Part shown: piece by piece, positions 18,998 through 39,854 of the stretch | Numbering within the stretch: the first letter of the stretch is position 1 | Layout: every line of letters starts with the position of its first letter | Source: Halobacterium sp. DL1 | Lineage (GTDB): Archaea; Halobacteriota; Halobacteria; Halobacteriales; Halobacteriaceae | Direction: 5' to 3' | Assembly: GCA_000230955.3 (NCBI GenBank) | Contig: CP007060.1 | Location: forward strand, 1,612,001-1,676,000 | DNA: 64,000 nt | Translations under genes and position numbers: made by a program | Notes under the pieces: model-generated | What the model saw: only the letters and a program-made list of their open reading frames with translations | Told to the model about the DNA's origin: nothing | Database searches by the model: none

Positions 18998-19063
18998 ACG
19001 TCGCCCCGCTGTTCACATGTTAACCCGGCCGTATTTGCAGGAAGCGTAACAGAGTAGGTGAGT

Positions 19064-20422
19064 ATGACGGGGATTGGCACGTCACGTCGAACCGTACTGA
19101 AGACACTCGGCGCAACCGGCGCCGCCGGAATCGCAGGCCTCGCGGGCTGTTCGGGGCTCGGAGGGTCGGAGAACCCAGATACAATGAAAATAGGTGTGAT
19201 GCAGCCGCTGTCGGGGAACATCGCGTACTACGGACAACAGGCGCTGTGGGGCTTCCTCTCGGGGCTCGCCTACAAGGGCGACACCGACCCCATCGCGGAC
19301 CCGTCGACGGGGAACCACGAAGTGGACGTCGGGGGGACGACCTACGAACTCGTCGTCCGCGACTCGAAGTTCTCCGCTGACGAGGCGCAGTCCATCGCGA
19401 ACAACCTCGTCACTGACGAGGAGGTTGACATGCTGTTCGGGTGTGCGTCCTCCACGGCCGCACGCCGCGTCGTGAACAACGTCCTGAGCGCCACCGACAT
19501 CCCGTACATGGCGGGGCCGGCGGCGTCCGCCGACCTCACGGCCAGCAGCGAGACGTGTAGCAACCAGCTGTTCCGCGCGAGCGAGAACACGGCGATGGAC
19601 GCCCGGAGCGGCGGGAAGTACGTCGCCGAGGAGTCCGACGTCAACAGCGTCTACCTGTTCGGCGCGGACTACTCGTTCGGCCGCGCGGTCGTGAACAACT
19701 ACAAGCGAGTTCTGCAGGACGCGGGCGTCGAGATCGTCGGCGAGCGCTACGTCCAGCGCGGCCACTCCGAGTGGGAGGGTCTGCTCCAGCAGGCCGAGGA
19801 GGCGGGCGCCGAGGGCGTCGTCGGCGGCTTCACCGTCGCGACGCTCCCTGCGATGTTCTCCCAGTTCCTGCAGGGGGACTACTCCTACCGGCTGTTCGGC
19901 GGGTTCGCGACTCGCATCTCCAACGCCGTGCTCGGCCAGACGCTCCAGGGCGTCGTCGGCAAACCGCTCACGCAGGAGAAACTCGACGGCGTCAAGGCCG
20001 GCCCGTTCACGACGCGTTACCACTGGAACCAGTACGACAACGACATCAACAGCGACTTCGTGGAGATGTACTCGAACGCCTACGGGACCGTGCCGGACCT
20101 GTTCAGTTCCGGGACGTTCACCGCGGCGTCCGCCATCGTCCAGGCCGTCAACGAGGAGAGTTCGACGGCAGCCGAGGATATCCAGGCCGGCCTGACGGGG
20201 ATGACGGTGACGGACACGCCGAAAGGCGAGGGCGGCTACACGTTCCAGGAGTACAACAACCAGGCCCGCTCCGAGATGACCATCGCGGACGTGGTGCCGA
20301 CCAGCGACGAGTGGGCGGACAGCTGGAACGCCGCCATCATGCCGAGCGAGCCGCTCTCGCGGGTCTCCGGCGAGGAAGCGACGATTCCGAAAGACGGCGA
20401 CCAGATGACCTGCTCGCTGTAG
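19064..20422 (+). CDS. LIV/HAAT-family ABC transporter substrate-binding lipoprotein
   Basis: A 452-residue periplasmic-binding-type protein anchored outside the membrane. The N-terminus has a twin-arginine signal (TSRRTVLKTLG, about residues 6-16) and the lipobox LAGC, after which the mature protein begins with a Ser/Gly linker. The mature part MKIGVMQPLSGNIAYYGQQ is the standard opening of type I binding proteins for branched-chain amino acids, amides or urea. The ATG at 19064 is preferred to a GTG six bases upstream. It is followed directly by both ATPases and both permeases, a complete importer. Confidence 0.9.
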   Translation: MTGIGTSRRTVLKTLGATGAAGIAGLAGCSGLGGSENPDTMKIGVMQPLSGNIAYYGQQALWGFLSGLAYKGDTDPIADPSTGNHEVDVGGTTYELVVRDSKFSADEAQSIANNLVTDEEVDMLFGCASSTAARRVVNNVLSATDIPYMAGPAASADLTASSETCSNQLFRASENTAMDARSGGKYVAEESDVNSVYLFGADYSFGRAVVNNYKRVLQDAGVEIVGERYVQRGHSEWEGLLQQAEEAGAEGVVGGFTVATLPAMFSQFLQGDYSYRLFGGFATRISNAVLGQTLQGVVGKPLTQEKLDGVKAGPFTTRYHWNQYDNDINSDFVEMYSNAYGTVPDLFSSGTFTAASAIVQAVNEESSTAAEDIQAGLTGMTVTDTPKGEGGYTFQEYNNQARSEMTIADVVPTSDEWADSWNAAIMPSEPLSRVSGEEATIPKDGDQMTCSL

Positions 20423-21193
20423 ATGCTGCGCACGCGGGGATTGACCCGTCGATTCGGCGGCCTGGTCGCGGTCGACCACGTCGACTTCGAACTCGGCGAG
20501 AACGAACTGTGTTCGCTCATCGGCCCGAACGGCGCCGGGAAGACGACGTTCTTCAACCTGTTGACGGGCGTACTCGCCCCCAGCGACGGCACCGTCGAAC
20601 TCCGTAGCGGGGACGGCTGGCGGGACGTGACCGCCGCCGGCCCGGCCGAGACGGCCCGGATGGGCATCCACCGGTCGTACCAGATCACGAATATCTTCCC
20701 GACGAACACCGTCCTGGAGAATGTCCGCGTCGCCGCGCAGGCCGACGCCGACACGGGTCGGCGGTTCTACCGCAACGTCAACGCCTTCGACGACCACGTC
20801 GAGGAGGCCTACGACATCCTCGACCGCGTCGACCTCGCCGAGGAAGCGGACACCGTCGCGGAGAACCTCAGCCACGGTGCAGCCCGCCAGTTAGAGGTCG
20901 GCGTCGCGCTCGCGGGCGACCCGGACGTGCTCCTCCTGGACGAACCGAACGCGGGCGTCTCCAGCGAGAGCGTCGACCGCATCGTCGACCTCATCGAGGA
21001 CGTCGCCCGCGACCACGCCGTGCTGCTGGTCGAACACAACATGGACATAGTGATGAACGTCAGCGACAGGGTCGTCGTCCTCGACCGTGGGTCCGTCATC
21101 GCCAACGACCCGCCCGAGGACGTCCGCAACGACGAGGAGGTCCGCCAGGCGTACCTCGGCGGCTACGAACGAGAAGCGGAGGGGCGGCCATGA
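20423..21193 (+). CDS. livG: LIV-type ABC transporter ATP-binding protein (LivG)
   Basis: A 256-residue ATPase starting immediately after the binding-protein stop. Walker A GPNGAGKT is at residues 34-41 and Walker B is in DVLLLDEPNAGV. The signature is unusual (NLSHGAARQLEVG instead of LSGGQ), as is common in LivG. With LivF it powers the HM permease pair. It ends with a 4-base ATGA overlap with livF, a sign of translational coupling. Confidence 0.92.
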   Translation: MLRTRGLTRRFGGLVAVDHVDFELGENELCSLIGPNGAGKTTFFNLLTGVLAPSDGTVELRSGDGWRDVTAAGPAETARMGIHRSYQITNIFPTNTVLENVRVAAQADADTGRRFYRNVNAFDDHVEEAYDILDRVDLAEEADTVAENLSHGAARQLEVGVALAGDPDVLLLDEPNAGVSSESVDRIVDLIEDVARDHAVLLVEHNMDIVMNVSDRVVVLDRGSVIANDPPEDVRNDEEVRQAYLGGYEREAEGRP

Positions 21194-21885
21194 GCTTACT
21201 AGAAGTCGAGGGCGTCCACACGTACTACGGCGAGAGCCACGTCCTCGAAGGCGTCTCCCTCGACGTCGAGCGCGGCGAGGTGGTCGCACTCGTCGGCCGG
21301 AACGGCGTCGGGAAGACGACGACGCTCCGGTCGATACTCCAGTTGACGCCACCCCGCGAGGGCGACGTCCGCTACGACGGTGAGAGCCTCGTCGGACTCG
21401 ACACCCACGAGGTGGCAGACCGCGGCGTCGGGTGGATTCCCGAGGACCGCCGCGTGTTCGCCCACCTCACCGTCGCGGAGAACGTCCGCCTGTCGGTTCC
21501 CCAGGGCAGCGACGAGGAGGCGGGCCTCGAAACCGCCTTCGAGGCGTTCCCGGACCTCCGCGACAAGCGGAACCGGGACGCCGGAACGCTCTCCGGCGGA
21601 CAACAGCAGATGCTCTCCATCGCACGCGGCCTCGTCGGCGAGAACGACCTGCTGCTCGTCGACGAACCCAGCGAGGGACTCGCGCCGCTCATCGTGCAGA
21701 ACGTCGCCGACGCGCTACGCGAAGTGGCCGAGGACACCACGCTGTTGCTGGTCGAACAGAACCTCCCGCTGGCCCTCGACCTGGCGGACCGCTTCTACGT
21801 CGTCGACCACGGGACGGTCGTCGACGAGGGGACCACGGAGGGCGTCACGACCGACGACGAGCGCTTCCGGAGGTTGTCGGCATGA
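21190..21885 (+). CDS. livF: LIV-type ABC transporter ATP-binding protein (LivF)
   Basis: A 231-residue ATPase with Walker A GRNGVGKT at residues 36-43, signature LSGGQQQML and Walker B LLLVDEPSEGLAP, the classic LivF pattern. It overlaps livG and livH by 4 bases each. It forms the heterodimeric motor with the preceding ATPase. Confidence 0.92.
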   Translation: MSLLEVEGVHTYYGESHVLEGVSLDVERGEVVALVGRNGVGKTTTLRSILQLTPPREGDVRYDGESLVGLDTHEVADRGVGWIPEDRRVFAHLTVAENVRLSVPQGSDEEAGLETAFEAFPDLRDKRNRDAGTLSGGQQQMLSIARGLVGENDLLLVDEPSEGLAPLIVQNVADALREVAEDTTLLLVEQNLPLALDLADRFYVVDHGTVVDEGTTEGVTTDDERFRRLSA

Positions 21886-22859
21886 TCGGCGCTATCGCCG
21901 CCTTCCCGGACCCGGCAACCCTCTTCGAGGTGTTCGTCTCCGGGCTGGCGAAGGCGTCGCTGTACGCGATGATGGCGCTCGGTCTCACCCTCATCTTCGG
22001 TCTACTCGGCGTGCTGAACTTCGCACACGGGTCGCTGACGATGCTCGGCGCTTACATCGCCGGCCTCGTGATGGTGACGTTCACCGGCAGCGCACCCGCA
22101 ATCGCGCTGTTCGTCGTCGCCGCCGTCGTCGCGGGCGTGCTGGTCGGCGGCGTCGGCGCCGCGATGGAGGTCGGACTGATACGGCGACTGTACGACCGGC
22201 CGCCCATCTACCAGATTCTCCTGACGTTCGGCGTCACGCTCGTCATCGACGAACTCGCGCGCATCGTCGTGCTGTTCTACGGCATCCAGCCGAACGCGGA
22301 CTGGCGCACCGCAACCCAGACGAAACCGACGTCGATGGGCGGGTCGATGGACCTGCTCGGCGCCTCCATCGGCAACCTGGAACTGTTCCAGATAGCGTGG
22401 GGCGTGGCCACTGTCGTCGCCGTGTGGGCGTTCCTCAACCGGACGCGCTACGGCCTCGTCGTGCGCGCGGGCAGCGAGGACGACGAGATGGCGGCCGCCC
22501 TCGGCATCGACGTCCGACGGGTGTTCACTGTCGTGTTCGCGCTCGGCGCCGCCCTCGCCGGGTTCGCCGGCGCGCTACTGATGTGGGACTCCGTCTGGGG
22601 CGCAAGCGTGCCGCTCGCCTCCGAGACACTGCTCCCGGCGTTCGTCGTCGTCATCGTCGGCGGCCTCGGGTCGTTCCGGGGGTCCGTCCTCGCAGCGCTG
22701 CTCGTCGGCATGGTCGACGCGGTGATGACCCACGTCTTCAACCTGGGCATCATCAGGTTCTCCGGCCTCTCCGAACTCACCATCTTCCTCATCCTCGTGG
22801 GCGTGCTCGTCGTGCGCCCGCAGGGCATCTCCGGGTTAGCGGAGGTGGGGGGCCATTAG
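21882..22859 (+). CDS. livH: LIV-type ABC permease (LivH)
   Basis: A 325-residue inner-membrane permease starting at the ATG overlapping the livF stop. It shows about eight hydrophobic helices and the family stretches GLTLIFGLLGVLNFAHGSL and PAFVVVIVGGLGSFRGS. It ends at the TAG at 22857-22859, whose first T is also the last base of the proposed AUU start of livM. Confidence 0.92.
   Translation: MIGAIAAFPDPATLFEVFVSGLAKASLYAMMALGLTLIFGLLGVLNFAHGSLTMLGAYIAGLVMVTFTGSAPAIALFVVAAVVAGVLVGGVGAAMEVGLIRRLYDRPPIYQILLTFGVTLVIDELARIVVLFYGIQPNADWRTATQTKPTSMGGSMDLLGASIGNLELFQIAWGVATVVAVWAFLNRTRYGLVVRAGSEDDEMAAALGIDVRRVFTVVFALGAALAGFAGALLMWDSVWGASVPLASETLLPAFVVVIVGGLGSFRGSVLAALLVGMVDAVMTHVFNLGIIRFSGLSELTIFLILVGVLVVRPQGISGLAEVGGH
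22841..22847 (+). promoter_or_regulatory. strong Shine-Dalgarno pointing to a non-ATG start of livM
   Basis: GGAGGTG at 22841-22847 is fully complementary to the archaeal 16S rRNA 3' end (CACCUCC). The GGAGGT core ends eight bases before ATT at 22855. No ATG, GTG, TTG or CTG occurs in the livM frame between the upstream in-frame stop at 22837 and the CTG at 22942, so this site decides the start. Confidence 0.65.
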
Positions 22860-24135
22860 CACCGAGACGGTCGGGAGCGGGGACGCGACCGACACGGAGA
22901 CGACCTGGGTCCGCCAGTACGCCCGCGACCACGTCGCCCACCTGCTGGTGGTTGCGTTCTTCGGCGTCTACCCGCTGATATACTCGTTCTTCGGTGGTGT
23001 GGCCGAGTTCGAGGCGTTCCTCCCGAAGACGGAGACGATGATTGCGGTGTTCTACTTCGGCCTGTTCGCGATGAGTTTCGACTTCATCAGCGGCTACACG
23101 GGCTACCTGTCGTTCGGTCACGCCGCGTTCTACGGCACCGGCGGCTACTTCGTCGTGCTCGTCGCCAGTGGCAAGATTCCGTTGCTGCCCGCGCAGACCC
23201 CGTTCATGGTGAGTCTGCTGCTCGCCGGCGTGCTCGCCGCGCTGCTCGCCGTCGTCATGGGGTCGGTGTCGTTCCGGCTCTCCGGCGTCTACTTCGCGAT
23301 GATCACGCTCGGATTCGCGCAGGTGCTGTACGTGCTGATGCGGGACTGGGACTACCTCGGGTCGAACCCCCGTGACGGCGTCTCCGTCAGCAACCAGCTA
23401 CACCCTCAGGGCTTCGAAATCGGGGTACCGGGCGTCGACGCGCTCAACTTCGCCATCGGGCCACTCCGGGGGGACGAACTGGAGTTCCTCTTCCTCGACC
23501 TGGGGGCGACGGAGGTGTCCTACTACATGGTCGGGCTGGTCGTGCTGGTCAGCTACCTCGCGATGCAGCGGATGGTCCACTCGCCGTTCGGGCGCGTGCT
23601 CGTCGCCATCCGCGAGAACGAGGAACGCGCCCGCGCGGTCGGCTACGACACGTTCCGGTACAAACTCGCGGCGTTCGCCGCCAGCGGCTTCTTCGCCGGC
23701 ATCGCGGGCGGCCTGTTCGCGGGCTACCGGCGGTCGGTCACGCCCGAGAACTCGCTGTACTTCCTCGTCAGCGGGGACGCGCTGCTGGCGTCCATCATCG
23801 GTGGGTTCGGCACGCTCGCCGGCCCGCTGTACGGTCGGCTGTTCGACCGCTCCATCCGCGAGTTCCTCTCGAAGACCGGCGGCGGTGGTGGCCTGCTGCC
23901 GTTGCTCCGGGACCACGTCCCGTCTGGCGTCCTCGACACCCCAGTCGTCAACGGAATGACCGTCGGCCAGGGCATCGAGACGTTCCTCAACGGACACGCC
24001 GCGCTCTACCTCGGCGTCGTCTTCGTCGTGTTCGTGCTGTTCGTCCCCGGCGGCCTGCTCGGGGCGGTCCGCGACCGCCTGGGCGGCACCGTCGCGAAAC
24101 GCCTTCCCGACTACCTCGCCAACTTCCGACGATGA
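22855..24135 (+). CDS. livM: LIV-type ABC permease (LivM), probable ATT start
   Basis: Membrane subunit pairing with LivH; 426 residues if read from ATT at 22855. That start gives an N-terminus reading (M)STETVGSGDATDTETTWV, the acidic cytoplasmic tail expected of a haloarchaeal LivM, before the first helix (HLLVVAFFGVYPLIYSFF). The classic LivM stretch GYTGYLSFGHAAFYGTGGYF and RENEERARAVGYDTFRYK are present. A GTG at 22948 is the alternative but would start inside the first hydrophobic segment and lacks a ribosome site. Family assignment is firm; the start codon is an inference. Confidence 0.88.
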   Translation: MSTETVGSGDATDTETTWVRQYARDHVAHLLVVAFFGVYPLIYSFFGGVAEFEAFLPKTETMIAVFYFGLFAMSFDFISGYTGYLSFGHAAFYGTGGYFVVLVASGKIPLLPAQTPFMVSLLLAGVLAALLAVVMGSVSFRLSGVYFAMITLGFAQVLYVLMRDWDYLGSNPRDGVSVSNQLHPQGFEIGVPGVDALNFAIGPLRGDELEFLFLDLGATEVSYYMVGLVVLVSYLAMQRMVHSPFGRVLVAIRENEERARAVGYDTFRYKLAAFAASGFFAGIAGGLFAGYRRSVTPENSLYFLVSGDALLASIIGGFGTLAGPLYGRLFDRSIREFLSKTGGGGGLLPLLRDHVPSGVLDTPVVNGMTVGQGIETFLNGHAALYLGVVFVVFVLFVPGGLLGAVRDRLGGTVAKRLPDYLANFRR

Positions 24136-25145
24136 CAGTCTCCCTGACCGGCTACGGCGTCTACACGCCCGAGGAAGTCCTCACCGGCGAGGAGATCGCC
24201 GCCGAGAGCGGCATTCCCGAGGACGTCGTCGTCGAGAAGATGGGCATCCGCGAGAAGCACGTCTGTCCGCCCGACGACGACCACGTCACGGACATGTGCC
24301 TGAAGGCCGCAGATGACGCGCTCGCCGATGCTGACATCGACCCCGCGGACATCGACCTGGTGCTGTATCACGGCAGCGAGTTCAAGGACTACGTCGTCTG
24401 GAGCGCTGCCGCGAACGTCGCCGAGCGACTCGGCGCGGAGAACGCCTACGCGACCGAGAGCTACACGCTCTGTGCGGGCGCGCCGCTGGCGCTCCGCCAG
24501 ACGCGCGCCCAGATCCAGACCGGTGACGTGGACACCGCACTCCTGGTCGCCGCGAGTCGCGAGGAGGACCTCGTGGACTACGGCGACGAGGACGCGTCGT
24601 TCATGTTCAACTTCGGGAGCGGCGCTTCCGCGTTCGTCCTCGAGGGCGACGCCGGCGACCGCGCGCGAGCGGTCGTCCACGAGAGTGCCGCAGTCACGGA
24701 CGGCAGTTTCTCCGAGGACGTAATCATGCCCGCGGGTGGGTCGAAACACCCGCCGACCCACGATACGGTCGACGCCGGGATGCACACGCTCACTGTCGCG
24801 TCCGACGACATGAAAGAGCGCATCGCGCCCGTCAGCGGCCCGAACTTCCTCTCGGTCGCCGACGACGCCCTGGAGAAGTCCGGGCTGACCCGAGAGGACG
24901 TCGACTTCGTCGCGCTCACCCACATGAAGCGGTCGTTCCACAACTGGCTGACCGACGAACTCGCTGTCGACACAGATGGCCACCACTACCTCGATGGCTA
25001 CGGCCACGTCCAGAGCGTCGACCAGGCGCTCGCGCTCGACGAGGGACTGGAGGGCAGAAGCGTCGAAGCGGGCGACACGGTACTCTTCCTCGCGGCCGGC
25101 ACTGGCTACACCTGGGCGGCGACAGTGCTGGAGTGGCGCGGCTGA
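24132..25145 (+). CDS. KAS III (FabH)-like 3-oxoacyl synthase
   Basis: A 337-residue thiolase-fold protein. Residues around SYTLCAGAPLALRQ contain the presumed nucleophile Cys114, and LTHMKRSFHNWLTDEL with DGYGHVQSVDQ corresponds to the His/Asn end of the KAS III active site in altered form. Haloarchaea do not use a bacterial-type fatty acid synthase, so the enzyme probably condenses or transfers CoA esters rather than building acyl-ACP. It overlaps livM by 4 bases and so belongs to the transport operon, which links it to metabolism of the imported compound. Confidence 0.72.
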   Translation: MTVSLTGYGVYTPEEVLTGEEIAAESGIPEDVVVEKMGIREKHVCPPDDDHVTDMCLKAADDALADADIDPADIDLVLYHGSEFKDYVVWSAAANVAERLGAENAYATESYTLCAGAPLALRQTRAQIQTGDVDTALLVAASREEDLVDYGDEDASFMFNFGSGASAFVLEGDAGDRARAVVHESAAVTDGSFSEDVIMPAGGSKHPPTHDTVDAGMHTLTVASDDMKERIAPVSGPNFLSVADDALEKSGLTREDVDFVALTHMKRSFHNWLTDELAVDTDGHHYLDGYGHVQSVDQALALDEGLEGRSVEAGDTVLFLAAGTGYTWAATVLEWRG

Positions 25146-37590: not shown

Positions 37591-37795
37591 ACGCTTGCGT
37601 CGGCAACACCTGGGCAACCGGTGGCGTTTGTGACCCGCGGAATCCAATCTCTCGGTCACCCACTGAAATGATGGTTGTTCCGACAGAAACCAGAGGTTCG
37701 CCTGGACAGCCGTTAGTTCTGCGCCCTACGGGAGAGAGATTTTGGACTGCTCGTGTAATATATTATGTGTCAACGTAAGAGATTTGAACGGTACC

Positions 37796-37801
37796 TTTAT
37801 A
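37796..37801 (+). promoter_or_regulatory. TATA box of second LIV cluster
   Basis: TTTATA lies 27-32 bases before the livM-type start at 37828, implying a leaderless transcript. A second AT-rich stretch (TAATATATTA) lies at about 37756-37765. Confidence 0.55.
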
Positions 37802-37827
37802 GTGAACGGGTGCCGCTTCCTTTGGTA

Positions 37828-38883
37828 ATGGAGAGCAAGGAGCAAGAGTCGGGTTGGCTAGAGAGAACCGCGTCCATGGTCGCTGGGCGGGAGATACTGT
37901 TGCTTTTCGCGCTCATACTCTTCCCCCTGTTCCTCACGGGGAACTTCTCGCTCACCACACACGTGTTGATCTTCGCGATGTTCGCGATGGGCTACTACAT
38001 CTCGCTGGGGGAGACGGGCATGCTGACGTTCGGCCACGCCGCCTTCTTCGGACTCGGCGCGTACGGCTCGGCGTTCTGGCTCGTCCACGTCGACGCCCCG
38101 GCCTACCTCGGCTTCTTCGGCATCGTCACCGGGACCCTGCTCGCCGTCGTCGGCGGCATCATCATCGGTGCGCTCTCTCTCCGGCGGCGAGGGACGTACC
38201 TGGCGCTCATCACGCTGGCGTTCCAGCAGATGGTCTACTTCACGTTCTTCCAGTGGGAGTCCGTCACCGGCGGCGACGACGGCCTCTACGGGCTCTCGAC
38301 GCCGAAGCTCGGAATTCCAGGCGTCTTCGTGCTCGAGTTCGAGGAGGGACTCGGTGGGCTGGTCACCTCCGAGATGCTGTTCTTCCTCTTCGTGTTCTTC
38401 ATCTTCACCCTGAGCGTGCTCGCGATCAGGCGGCTCAAGCAGTCGAAACTCGGCCACGTCTTCAACGCGGTCCGGGAGAACGAGGAACGCGCGAACTTCC
38501 TCGGCTACAACGTCCAGCGCTACCGGATGATCGCGTTCGTCGCCAGCGCGGGCTTCGCGGGCCTCGGCGGCACCCTCTACCCGGTCTACCTCAACTTCGT
38601 CGGTCTGAGCACGCTCAACTGGGTGCTCTCCGGGGAGGTCAACTTCTTCCTGCTGCTCGGCGGCCTCGGGTCGTTCCTCGGTCCGGTCGTCGGGACGATG
38701 TCCTACTACTGGGTGGTCGACGAGATCAGCGCCTTCACCGACCACTGGCAGCTCATCGTCGGCCTCATCTTCATCTCGCTGGTGCTGTTCCTCCCGGAGG
38801 GCATCGTCGGGACGCTCCGGAACTACGTCTCTGACCGCACGTCGTACACCATCCACGAGGTGCCTCCACGCAGCGATGACTGA
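37828..38883 (+). CDS. livM: LIV-type ABC permease (LivM), second system
   Basis: A 351-residue membrane permease from the ATG at 37828 (MESKEQESGWLERTASMVAG). LivM hallmarks: GETGMLTFGHAAFFGLGAYG and RENEERANFLGYNVQRYR. About ten helices. In this cluster the order is livM-livH, then a divergent reductase, then binding protein-livG-livF, unlike the first cluster. The upstream in-frame ATG at 37765 lies before the TATA and is not used here. Confidence 0.9.
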   Translation: MESKEQESGWLERTASMVAGREILLLFALILFPLFLTGNFSLTTHVLIFAMFAMGYYISLGETGMLTFGHAAFFGLGAYGSAFWLVHVDAPAYLGFFGIVTGTLLAVVGGIIIGALSLRRRGTYLALITLAFQQMVYFTFFQWESVTGGDDGLYGLSTPKLGIPGVFVLEFEEGLGGLVTSEMLFFLFVFFIFTLSVLAIRRLKQSKLGHVFNAVRENEERANFLGYNVQRYRMIAFVASAGFAGLGGTLYPVYLNFVGLSTLNWVLSGEVNFFLLLGGLGSFLGPVVGTMSYYWVVDEISAFTDHWQLIVGLIFISLVLFLPEGIVGTLRNYVSDRTSYTIHEVPPRSDD

Positions 38884-38963
38884 ACGCCACAGAACAGACG
38901 GACGCGCAGGCGGCGCAGTCGAACCGGCGACCACCCACACCACTACACGGAGTCGAACGTAAC

Positions 38964-39854
38964 ATGGTATCCACAAGCCAATTCCTGATTCAGGTACTGA
39001 ACGGCCTCTCGCTGGCGAGCATCTTCGCACTGACGGCGATGGGACTGACTATCATCTTCGGGCTGATGGGCGTCGTCAACTTCGCCCACGGAGCGTACTA
39101 CGGCCTCGGCATCTACTTCGGGCTCGCCGCCCTGCAGATGATCTCCGGGCCGTGGGCGTTCTTCGCGGCGTTGCTGGTCGCCCTGCTGGCGACGGCCGCC
39201 GTGGGGGTGGCCACCGAGGTGACCGTGATACGGCCGCTCTACGACCGCGACCTGATAGCGTCGTTGCTGTTGACCTTCGGGGTGATGCTCGTCCTCCACG
39301 AGGTCATCCGGCTCGTCTGGGGGGTCGGTAGCCAGACCATCAGCACGCCCTCCCTGCTCAGCTTCTCGGTGGGCCTGGGCATCATCAACTACCCCGCGTA
39401 CCGGCTGTTCGTCATCGGGATGGCGGTCGTCGTCTCCCTCGCCGTCTGGCTGTTCCTCCAGCGGACGGACATCGGGATGATCATCCGCGCGGCCACGGAG
39501 AACCGCGACATGGTGAAGGCCCTCGGCATCGACATCGACCGCGTCTACACGTTCGTCTTCGCGCTCGGCGTCGGCATCGCGGGTCTGGCGGGCATCCTCC
39601 ACGCGCCGATGATCAGCGTCTACCCCGAGGTCGGGACGACCATCGTCGTGCAGAGCTTCGTCGTGGTCGTCATCGGCGGCCTCAACAGCTTCCGCGGGTC
39701 CATCATCGCGGCAGTGCTCGTCGGCGAGGCGAGCGCGCTCTCGTACCTCATCTGGCCCCCGATGACCGACGTCGCCATCTTCATCGTGATGGCGCTGTTC
39801 CTCATCCTGCGCCCCCAGGGCATCTTCGGCAAGTCCCTGGGTGGACTCGAGTAG
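38964..39854 (+). CDS. livH: LIV-type ABC permease (LivH), second system
   Basis: A 296-residue permease following livM by 80 bases, with GLTIIFGLMGVVNFAHGAYY and QSFVVVVIGGLNSFRGSIIA as LivH hallmarks and a final RPQGIFGKSLGGLE. It pairs with the preceding LivM and presumably with the ATPases at 42342-43788. Confidence 0.9.
   Translation: MVSTSQFLIQVLNGLSLASIFALTAMGLTIIFGLMGVVNFAHGAYYGLGIYFGLAALQMISGPWAFFAALLVALLATAAVGVATEVTVIRPLYDRDLIASLLLTFGVMLVLHEVIRLVWGVGSQTISTPSLLSFSVGLGIINYPAYRLFVIGMAVVVSLAVWLFLQRTDIGMIIRAATENRDMVKALGIDIDRVYTFVFALGVGIAGLAGILHAPMISVYPEVGTTIVVQSFVVVVIGGLNSFRGSIIAAVLVGEASALSYLIWPPMTDVAIFIVMALFLILRPQGIFGKSLGGLE

Follow-up and report, generated by a model that had tools for sequence, protein, structure and literature searches.

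In Halobacterium sp. DL1, the permease gene livM is very probably translated from an AUU codon (positions 22855-22857 of the window, i.e., the whole stretch of 64,000 nucleotides analysed here) by a ribosome or small subunit that restarts after the UAG of livH and is held in place by a Shine-Dalgarno (SD) sequence. On the comparative sequence evidence laid out below, support for the use of AUU as start of livM is strong. From the same material we infer that this start is coupled to termination on livH, that methionine is the first residue of LivM, and that the weakness of the start makes LivM depend on translation of LivH. In the proposed course of events, a ribosome or its small subunit would end LivH at the UAG within AUUAG, an overlap of -5 nt. 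The strong SD GGAGGTG, seven nucleotides upstream, would hold the terminated ribosome, which would then restart at AUU, where initiator Met-tRNA would presumably be used. LivM would begin with (M)S-T-E and carry an unannotated N-terminal tail.

The operon and its livH-livM junction

Profile matches identify the operon at 19058-25145 as an ABC importer of the branched-chain amino acid type, with the gene order binding protein, two ATPases, LivH, LivM, and then a ketoacyl/HMG-CoA synthase-like gene (Table 1). LivH and LivM score 137.5 and 125.8 bits against PF02653 (gathering cut-off 26.8), and both are thus BPD_transp_2 permeases. The closest named orthologs to the window are those of Halobacterium bonnevillei and Halobacterium sp. 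A second LivM/LivH-type pair is found at 37765-39854 of the window, with reversed gene order and ordinary ATG starts.

Table 1. Features of the operon and of the livH-livM junction, in window coordinates.
Feature	Position	Strand	Evidence or remark
Substrate-binding protein, operon member	19058..20422	+	PF13458, E=9.5e-56
livG-like ATPase	20423..21193	+	3' end overlaps livF by ATGA
livF-like ATPase	21190..21885	+	3' end overlaps livH by ATGA
livH, branched-chain amino acid-type ABC permease	21882..22859	+	PF02653, E=5.9e-40
In-frame TAG closing the livM frame upstream	22837..22839	+	Sequence
Shine-Dalgarno GGAGGTG, 7-nt spacer to ATT	22841..22847	+	Pairs with anti-SD; near-invariant in 82 orthologs
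livM start codon ATT (AUU), strongly supported	22855..22857	+	Sequence; ATT in 130/137 ortholog genomes, 82 non-redundant junctions
ATTAG, 5-nt stop/start overlap (livM AUU with livH UAG)	22855..22859	+	Sequence; in livH, CAT 82/82 and TAG 81/82
livM, branched-chain amino acid-type ABC permease, 426 aa from AUU	22855..24135	+	PF02653, E=2.3e-36
LivM N-terminal tail, predicted	22855..22941	+	In frame in 82/82 orthologs; missed by annotation
GTG at start of TM1, first canonical start codon in livM frame; probably unused	22948..22950	+	
Ketoacyl/HMG-CoA synthase-like gene	24132..25145	+	ATGA overlap with livM; orthologs annotated 3-oxoacyl-ACP synthase

The junction reads TTAGCGGAGGTGGGGGGCCATTAGCACCGAG. 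In the livH frame it ends with GAG GTG GGG GGC CAT TAG (protein ...EVGGH*, the stop at 22857-22859), and in the livM frame the same bases are read CGG AGG TGG GGG GCC ATT AGC ACC. A first-pass annotation of this DNA had stated that livM lacks ATG, GTG, TTG, and CTG between the in-frame stop at 22837 and CTG 22942, which a reading of the frame confirms: from 22840 onwards, the first of these codons is CTG 22942, followed by CTG 22945 and GTG 22948. ACG codons are present in the livM frame, and their positions are not conserved. The same annotation had put GGAGGTG eight bases ahead of ATT; its position stands, while the distance has to be corrected to seven intervening nucleotides. The anti-SD GGATCACCTCCT occurs a single time in the genome and pairs with GGAGGTG over 7 nt.

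With its stop and start overlapping, livH-livM resembles known termination-reinitiation pairs. The overlap of ATT with the livH stop had been recognized correctly, but likened to the ATGA overlaps of this operon, and here the register differs: it is -4 at three other junctions (21190-21193, 21882-21885, and 24132-24135) and -5 at livH-livM. An overlap of -5 lies outside the common classes -4, -1, and -8, and among the livM orthologs -4 is seen only in those with ATG or TTG. An ATG at 22855 would need the substitution T22857G, by which the livH stop TAG becomes GAG and is lost. In general, an NTG start cannot form a -5 overlap because its third base is the T of the stop; AUU is the closest codon available in this register.

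Conservation of the junction among haloarchaea

A 17-nt junction motif, GAGGTGGGNGGNCATTA, was searched in 391 haloarchaeal genomes from 86 genera, with the reversed motif serving as control. It was found in 126 genomes and 38 genera, at one place per genome with a single exception, while the control gave 0 matches, and the junction is therefore far from chance. A protein search in the 391 genomes revealed livM orthologs in 137 of them, where the start is ATT in 130 cases, ATG (ATGA) in five, TTG (TTGA) in one, and affected by a deletion in one, counts that overstate the number of evolutionary events, as related genomes are not independent. The tree requires only two changes of start state, and its rooting by a paralog is unreliable. 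Every junction of an ortholog lacking the exact motif was read; of those in the remaining 124 genomes, about 30 received a full reading and the others a spot check of coordinates, which placed the motif just upstream of livM.

Six genomes without the exact motif still have ATT and differ by small changes nearby, mostly GGGGGTG for GGAGGTG. A more divergent homolog (43% identity; L129 in genome G211) shows the same ATTAG junction. The five genomes with ATG form a Halovenus-like clade, in which the ATGA overlap stands behind GGTGATC. The junction of this clade, GGTGATCACGGATGAG, pairs with another region of the anti-SD (L048, L050, L051, L053, L054, L060, and L120-L124). In the single ortholog with a TTG start (L116, G313:C1:3479500-3482300), the overlap is TTGA and the register of livM relative to livH is shifted. 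Since the ATG and TTG exceptions occupy the equivalent place in another register, they mark this spot as an initiation site. Two further loci deviate individually: in L125/L131 (G143:C15:120500-126500), livH and livM are apparently fused by the deletion into a chimeric frame, and a second livM copy (L127, G233:C3:20700-23500) has a mid-gene frame break, possibly a pseudogene or a sequence error, next to an intact ATTAG junction.

Retention of ATT across the orthologous livHM junctions, the comparison that the first-pass annotation had proposed, argues strongly for the AUU start. The same annotation had considered an ATG-to-ATT sequencing error, which is excluded because about 130 species, each sequenced separately, show the junction; a sequencing error or a pseudogene confined to one genome is, on this evidence, practically impossible. 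With AUU at the start position, an SD at initiation distance, and conservation of the arrangement, livM has the features of an AUU-start gene.

Comparable sites elsewhere do not point to further genes of this kind. None of the ten other GGAGGTG-N5-9-ATT sites in the Halobacterium genome resembles a gene start. Across 145 haloarchaeal genomes, GGAGGTG-N5-8-ATTAG marks the livHM junction and 18 scattered sites, without excess over the reversed control, and the 11 scattered sites that were read likewise do not resemble gene starts. As the other strong SD-ATTAG sites that were read do not resemble gene starts, the AUU start appears limited to one gene family, livM, rather than being a general habit, among the strong-SD GGAGGTG sites searched.

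Selection on the overlap as nucleotides

For codon, frame, and tail counts, we used a set of 82 non-redundant ATT junctions. In 82 of 82, livH has CAT as its final sense codon, compared with 25 of 520 His codons (4.8%) in the remainder of these genes. As stop codon, livH has TAG in 81 junctions, TAA in one, and TGA in none, whereas livM itself ends with TGA in 71 of 80 cases and with TAG in 7.5%. This near-fixation of CAT and TAG against the rest of the genes indicates that selection acts on ATTAG as nucleotides. The wobble bases within the SD are fixed as well (GAG or GGG in 82/82, GTG in 81/82), and the first wobble base of the spacer (22850) varies freely (GGG 32, GGC 27, GGT 22, GGA 1). 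Such a pattern of CAT, TAG, and SD wobble bases cannot arise from constraint on the LivH protein, but can from an SD combined with ATTAG. When a quarter of the junctions were folded as RNA, AUUAG came out as the least paired stretch. Were the livH stop TGA, the resulting ATTGA would contain an out-of-frame TTG, as is the case in the TTG ortholog of G313.

The livM reading frame and its N-terminal tail

In 82 of 82 orthologs, ATT shares its frame with the livM domain, the two being separated by a tail of between 25 and 118 codons. GC content by codon position right after ATT (0.68/0.66/0.86, GC3 0.84-0.86) resembles that of a haloarchaeal gene. Ala, Asp, Thr, Glu, and Ser are abundant in these tails (25-118 aa), which differ greatly in sequence and length from one ortholog to the next.

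RefSeq places the livM start at a GTG or ATG further downstream, in which case the conserved junction would have to be something else. All ten plasmid records checked are annotated in this way, with livM starts 85-253 nt past the livH stop. These positions are inconsistent, and the other genes of the same operons mostly overlap or nearly touch, so that the gap is at odds with otherwise tight packing. Furthermore, 42 of the 82 orthologs have no ATG, GTG, or TTG before TM1, and 30 of those have none upstream in the open frame either; the 52 orthologs that do carry a canonical codon in the tail or in the upstream open frame have it at inconsistent places, and many orthologs have their first canonical codon only within TM1. 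Together with the frame and coding composition of the tail, which are kept in 82 of 82, this renders a downstream start highly unlikely, and the RefSeq annotation probably misses the livM start in 10 of 10 records. GTG 22948 and CTG 22942, named in the first-pass annotation as starts that would speak against AUU, are very unlikely candidates, as their positions are not conserved among orthologs. In a practical respect, the N-terminus of this transporter's LivM would be misannotated in every record checked. In the plasmid of Halobaculum magnesiiphilum, RefSeq fills the gap left by the missed start with an antisense hypothetical protein (L136, 558-782), which is probably spurious.

Canonical start codons are absent from codons 2-10 of livM (0/738) and present further on (55/3093), a difference that is suggestive, the sequences being related.

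Function of the AUU start

Overlapping gene pairs were strictly coupled in 13 of 14 cases tested in Haloferax volcanii and E. coli (PMC6728339), and they often encode subunits of one complex (PMC10666635), as do livH and livM. The first-pass annotation had suggested an imbalance in permease subunits as the effect of the AUU start; coupled translation, with LivH and LivM produced in step, would fit better. A point against the AUU reading is that AUU performs poorly in E. coli, where PMC10666635 cites a value of about 0.3% relative to AUG.

This weakness could itself be the purpose. It is possible, if tentative, that AUU acts as a coupling-only start, too weak to be used alone and efficient only for ribosomes fresh from termination at the overlapping UAG, such that LivM would be made strictly in step with LivH. 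An equally tentative possibility, concerning the purpose of AUU and not its use, is that the codon has no special function and is a frozen accident of the overlap register. It is in line with this that T22857G would destroy the livH stop, that canonical starts are unable to form a -5 overlap (PMC10666635), and that escape has come about only via a change of register, once towards TTG/TTGA (G313) and, if ATT is ancestral, once towards ATG/ATGA in the Halovenus-like clade. However, some 40 genera have retained AUU, even though an ATG placed a few codons downstream would offer an easy way out, and codons 2-10 contain no canonical starts.

Comparison with known systems

The livHM junction shares with prfB-type +1 frameshifting an SD-like element just upstream of a stop codon and a downstream frame at +1. 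A programmed +1 frameshift at CAU-UAG, stimulated internally by GGAGGTG as in bacterial prfB, could be considered as the source of a fused LivH-LivM protein, given that the livM frame is +1 to that of livH and that the stop follows the last sense codon. Yet tRNA-His on CAU is unable to re-pair with AUU. In prfB, the SD lies about 3 nt from the frameshift codon, whereas here it is 6 nt from CAU, a spacing that suits initiation at ATT. Moreover, livM is in phase 1 in ATT orthologs and in phase 2 in ATG and TTG orthologs, and one frameshift site cannot serve both. We therefore regard a frameshift as exceedingly improbable.

Initiation at AUU is known from bacterial infC, which resembles livM in having a conserved AUU start codon; unlike infC, livM is an archaeal permease gene and overlaps an upstream stop. 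infC is autoregulated by IF3 via start-codon discrimination. Autoregulation of this kind is not indicated for livM, because LivM is a permease and no initiation factor. The conserved AUU start of infC (IF3) goes back to Butler et al. 1987 and Brombach and Pon 1987, as cited in PMC9845219. AUU starts are extremely rare otherwise: in one survey, 1 of 61,358 ancestral AUG starts had changed to AUU (PMC5622118). In Haloferax and other haloarchaea, translation of the leuA-like HVO_1510 and its orthologs appears to need an atypical start (PMC8305020), which varies by species and may be CTG or involve slippage from an out-of-frame ATG, in contrast to the one conserved AUU of livM. In the open-access literature, we found no report of a livM AUU start, a conserved archaeal AUU start, or a proven -5 overlap.

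The closest relatives of the arrangement are the haloarchaeal termination-reinitiation pairs of Huber et al. (2019, PMC6728339; 2023, PMC10666635), which likewise combine a stop/start overlap, an upstream SD, and partner subunits. These pairs overlap by -4 (ATGA), -1, or -8 and use canonical starts, as opposed to ATT and -5 in livHM. A -5 overlap was deemed ruled out for canonical starts and only named as a possibility for ATT (PMC10666635), so that livHM would provide a conserved natural example of a class recently called essentially ruled out for canonical starts; should the coupling-only start hold true, haloarchaeal selection would have maintained this class. A deeply conserved archaeal AUU would also offer a natural and easily tested system for start-codon choice and for reinitiation that bypasses this choice. 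While AUU starts as in infC are known and overlapping coupled genes are common, the open-access literature yielded no precedent for a conserved archaeal AUU start or a proven -5 overlap.
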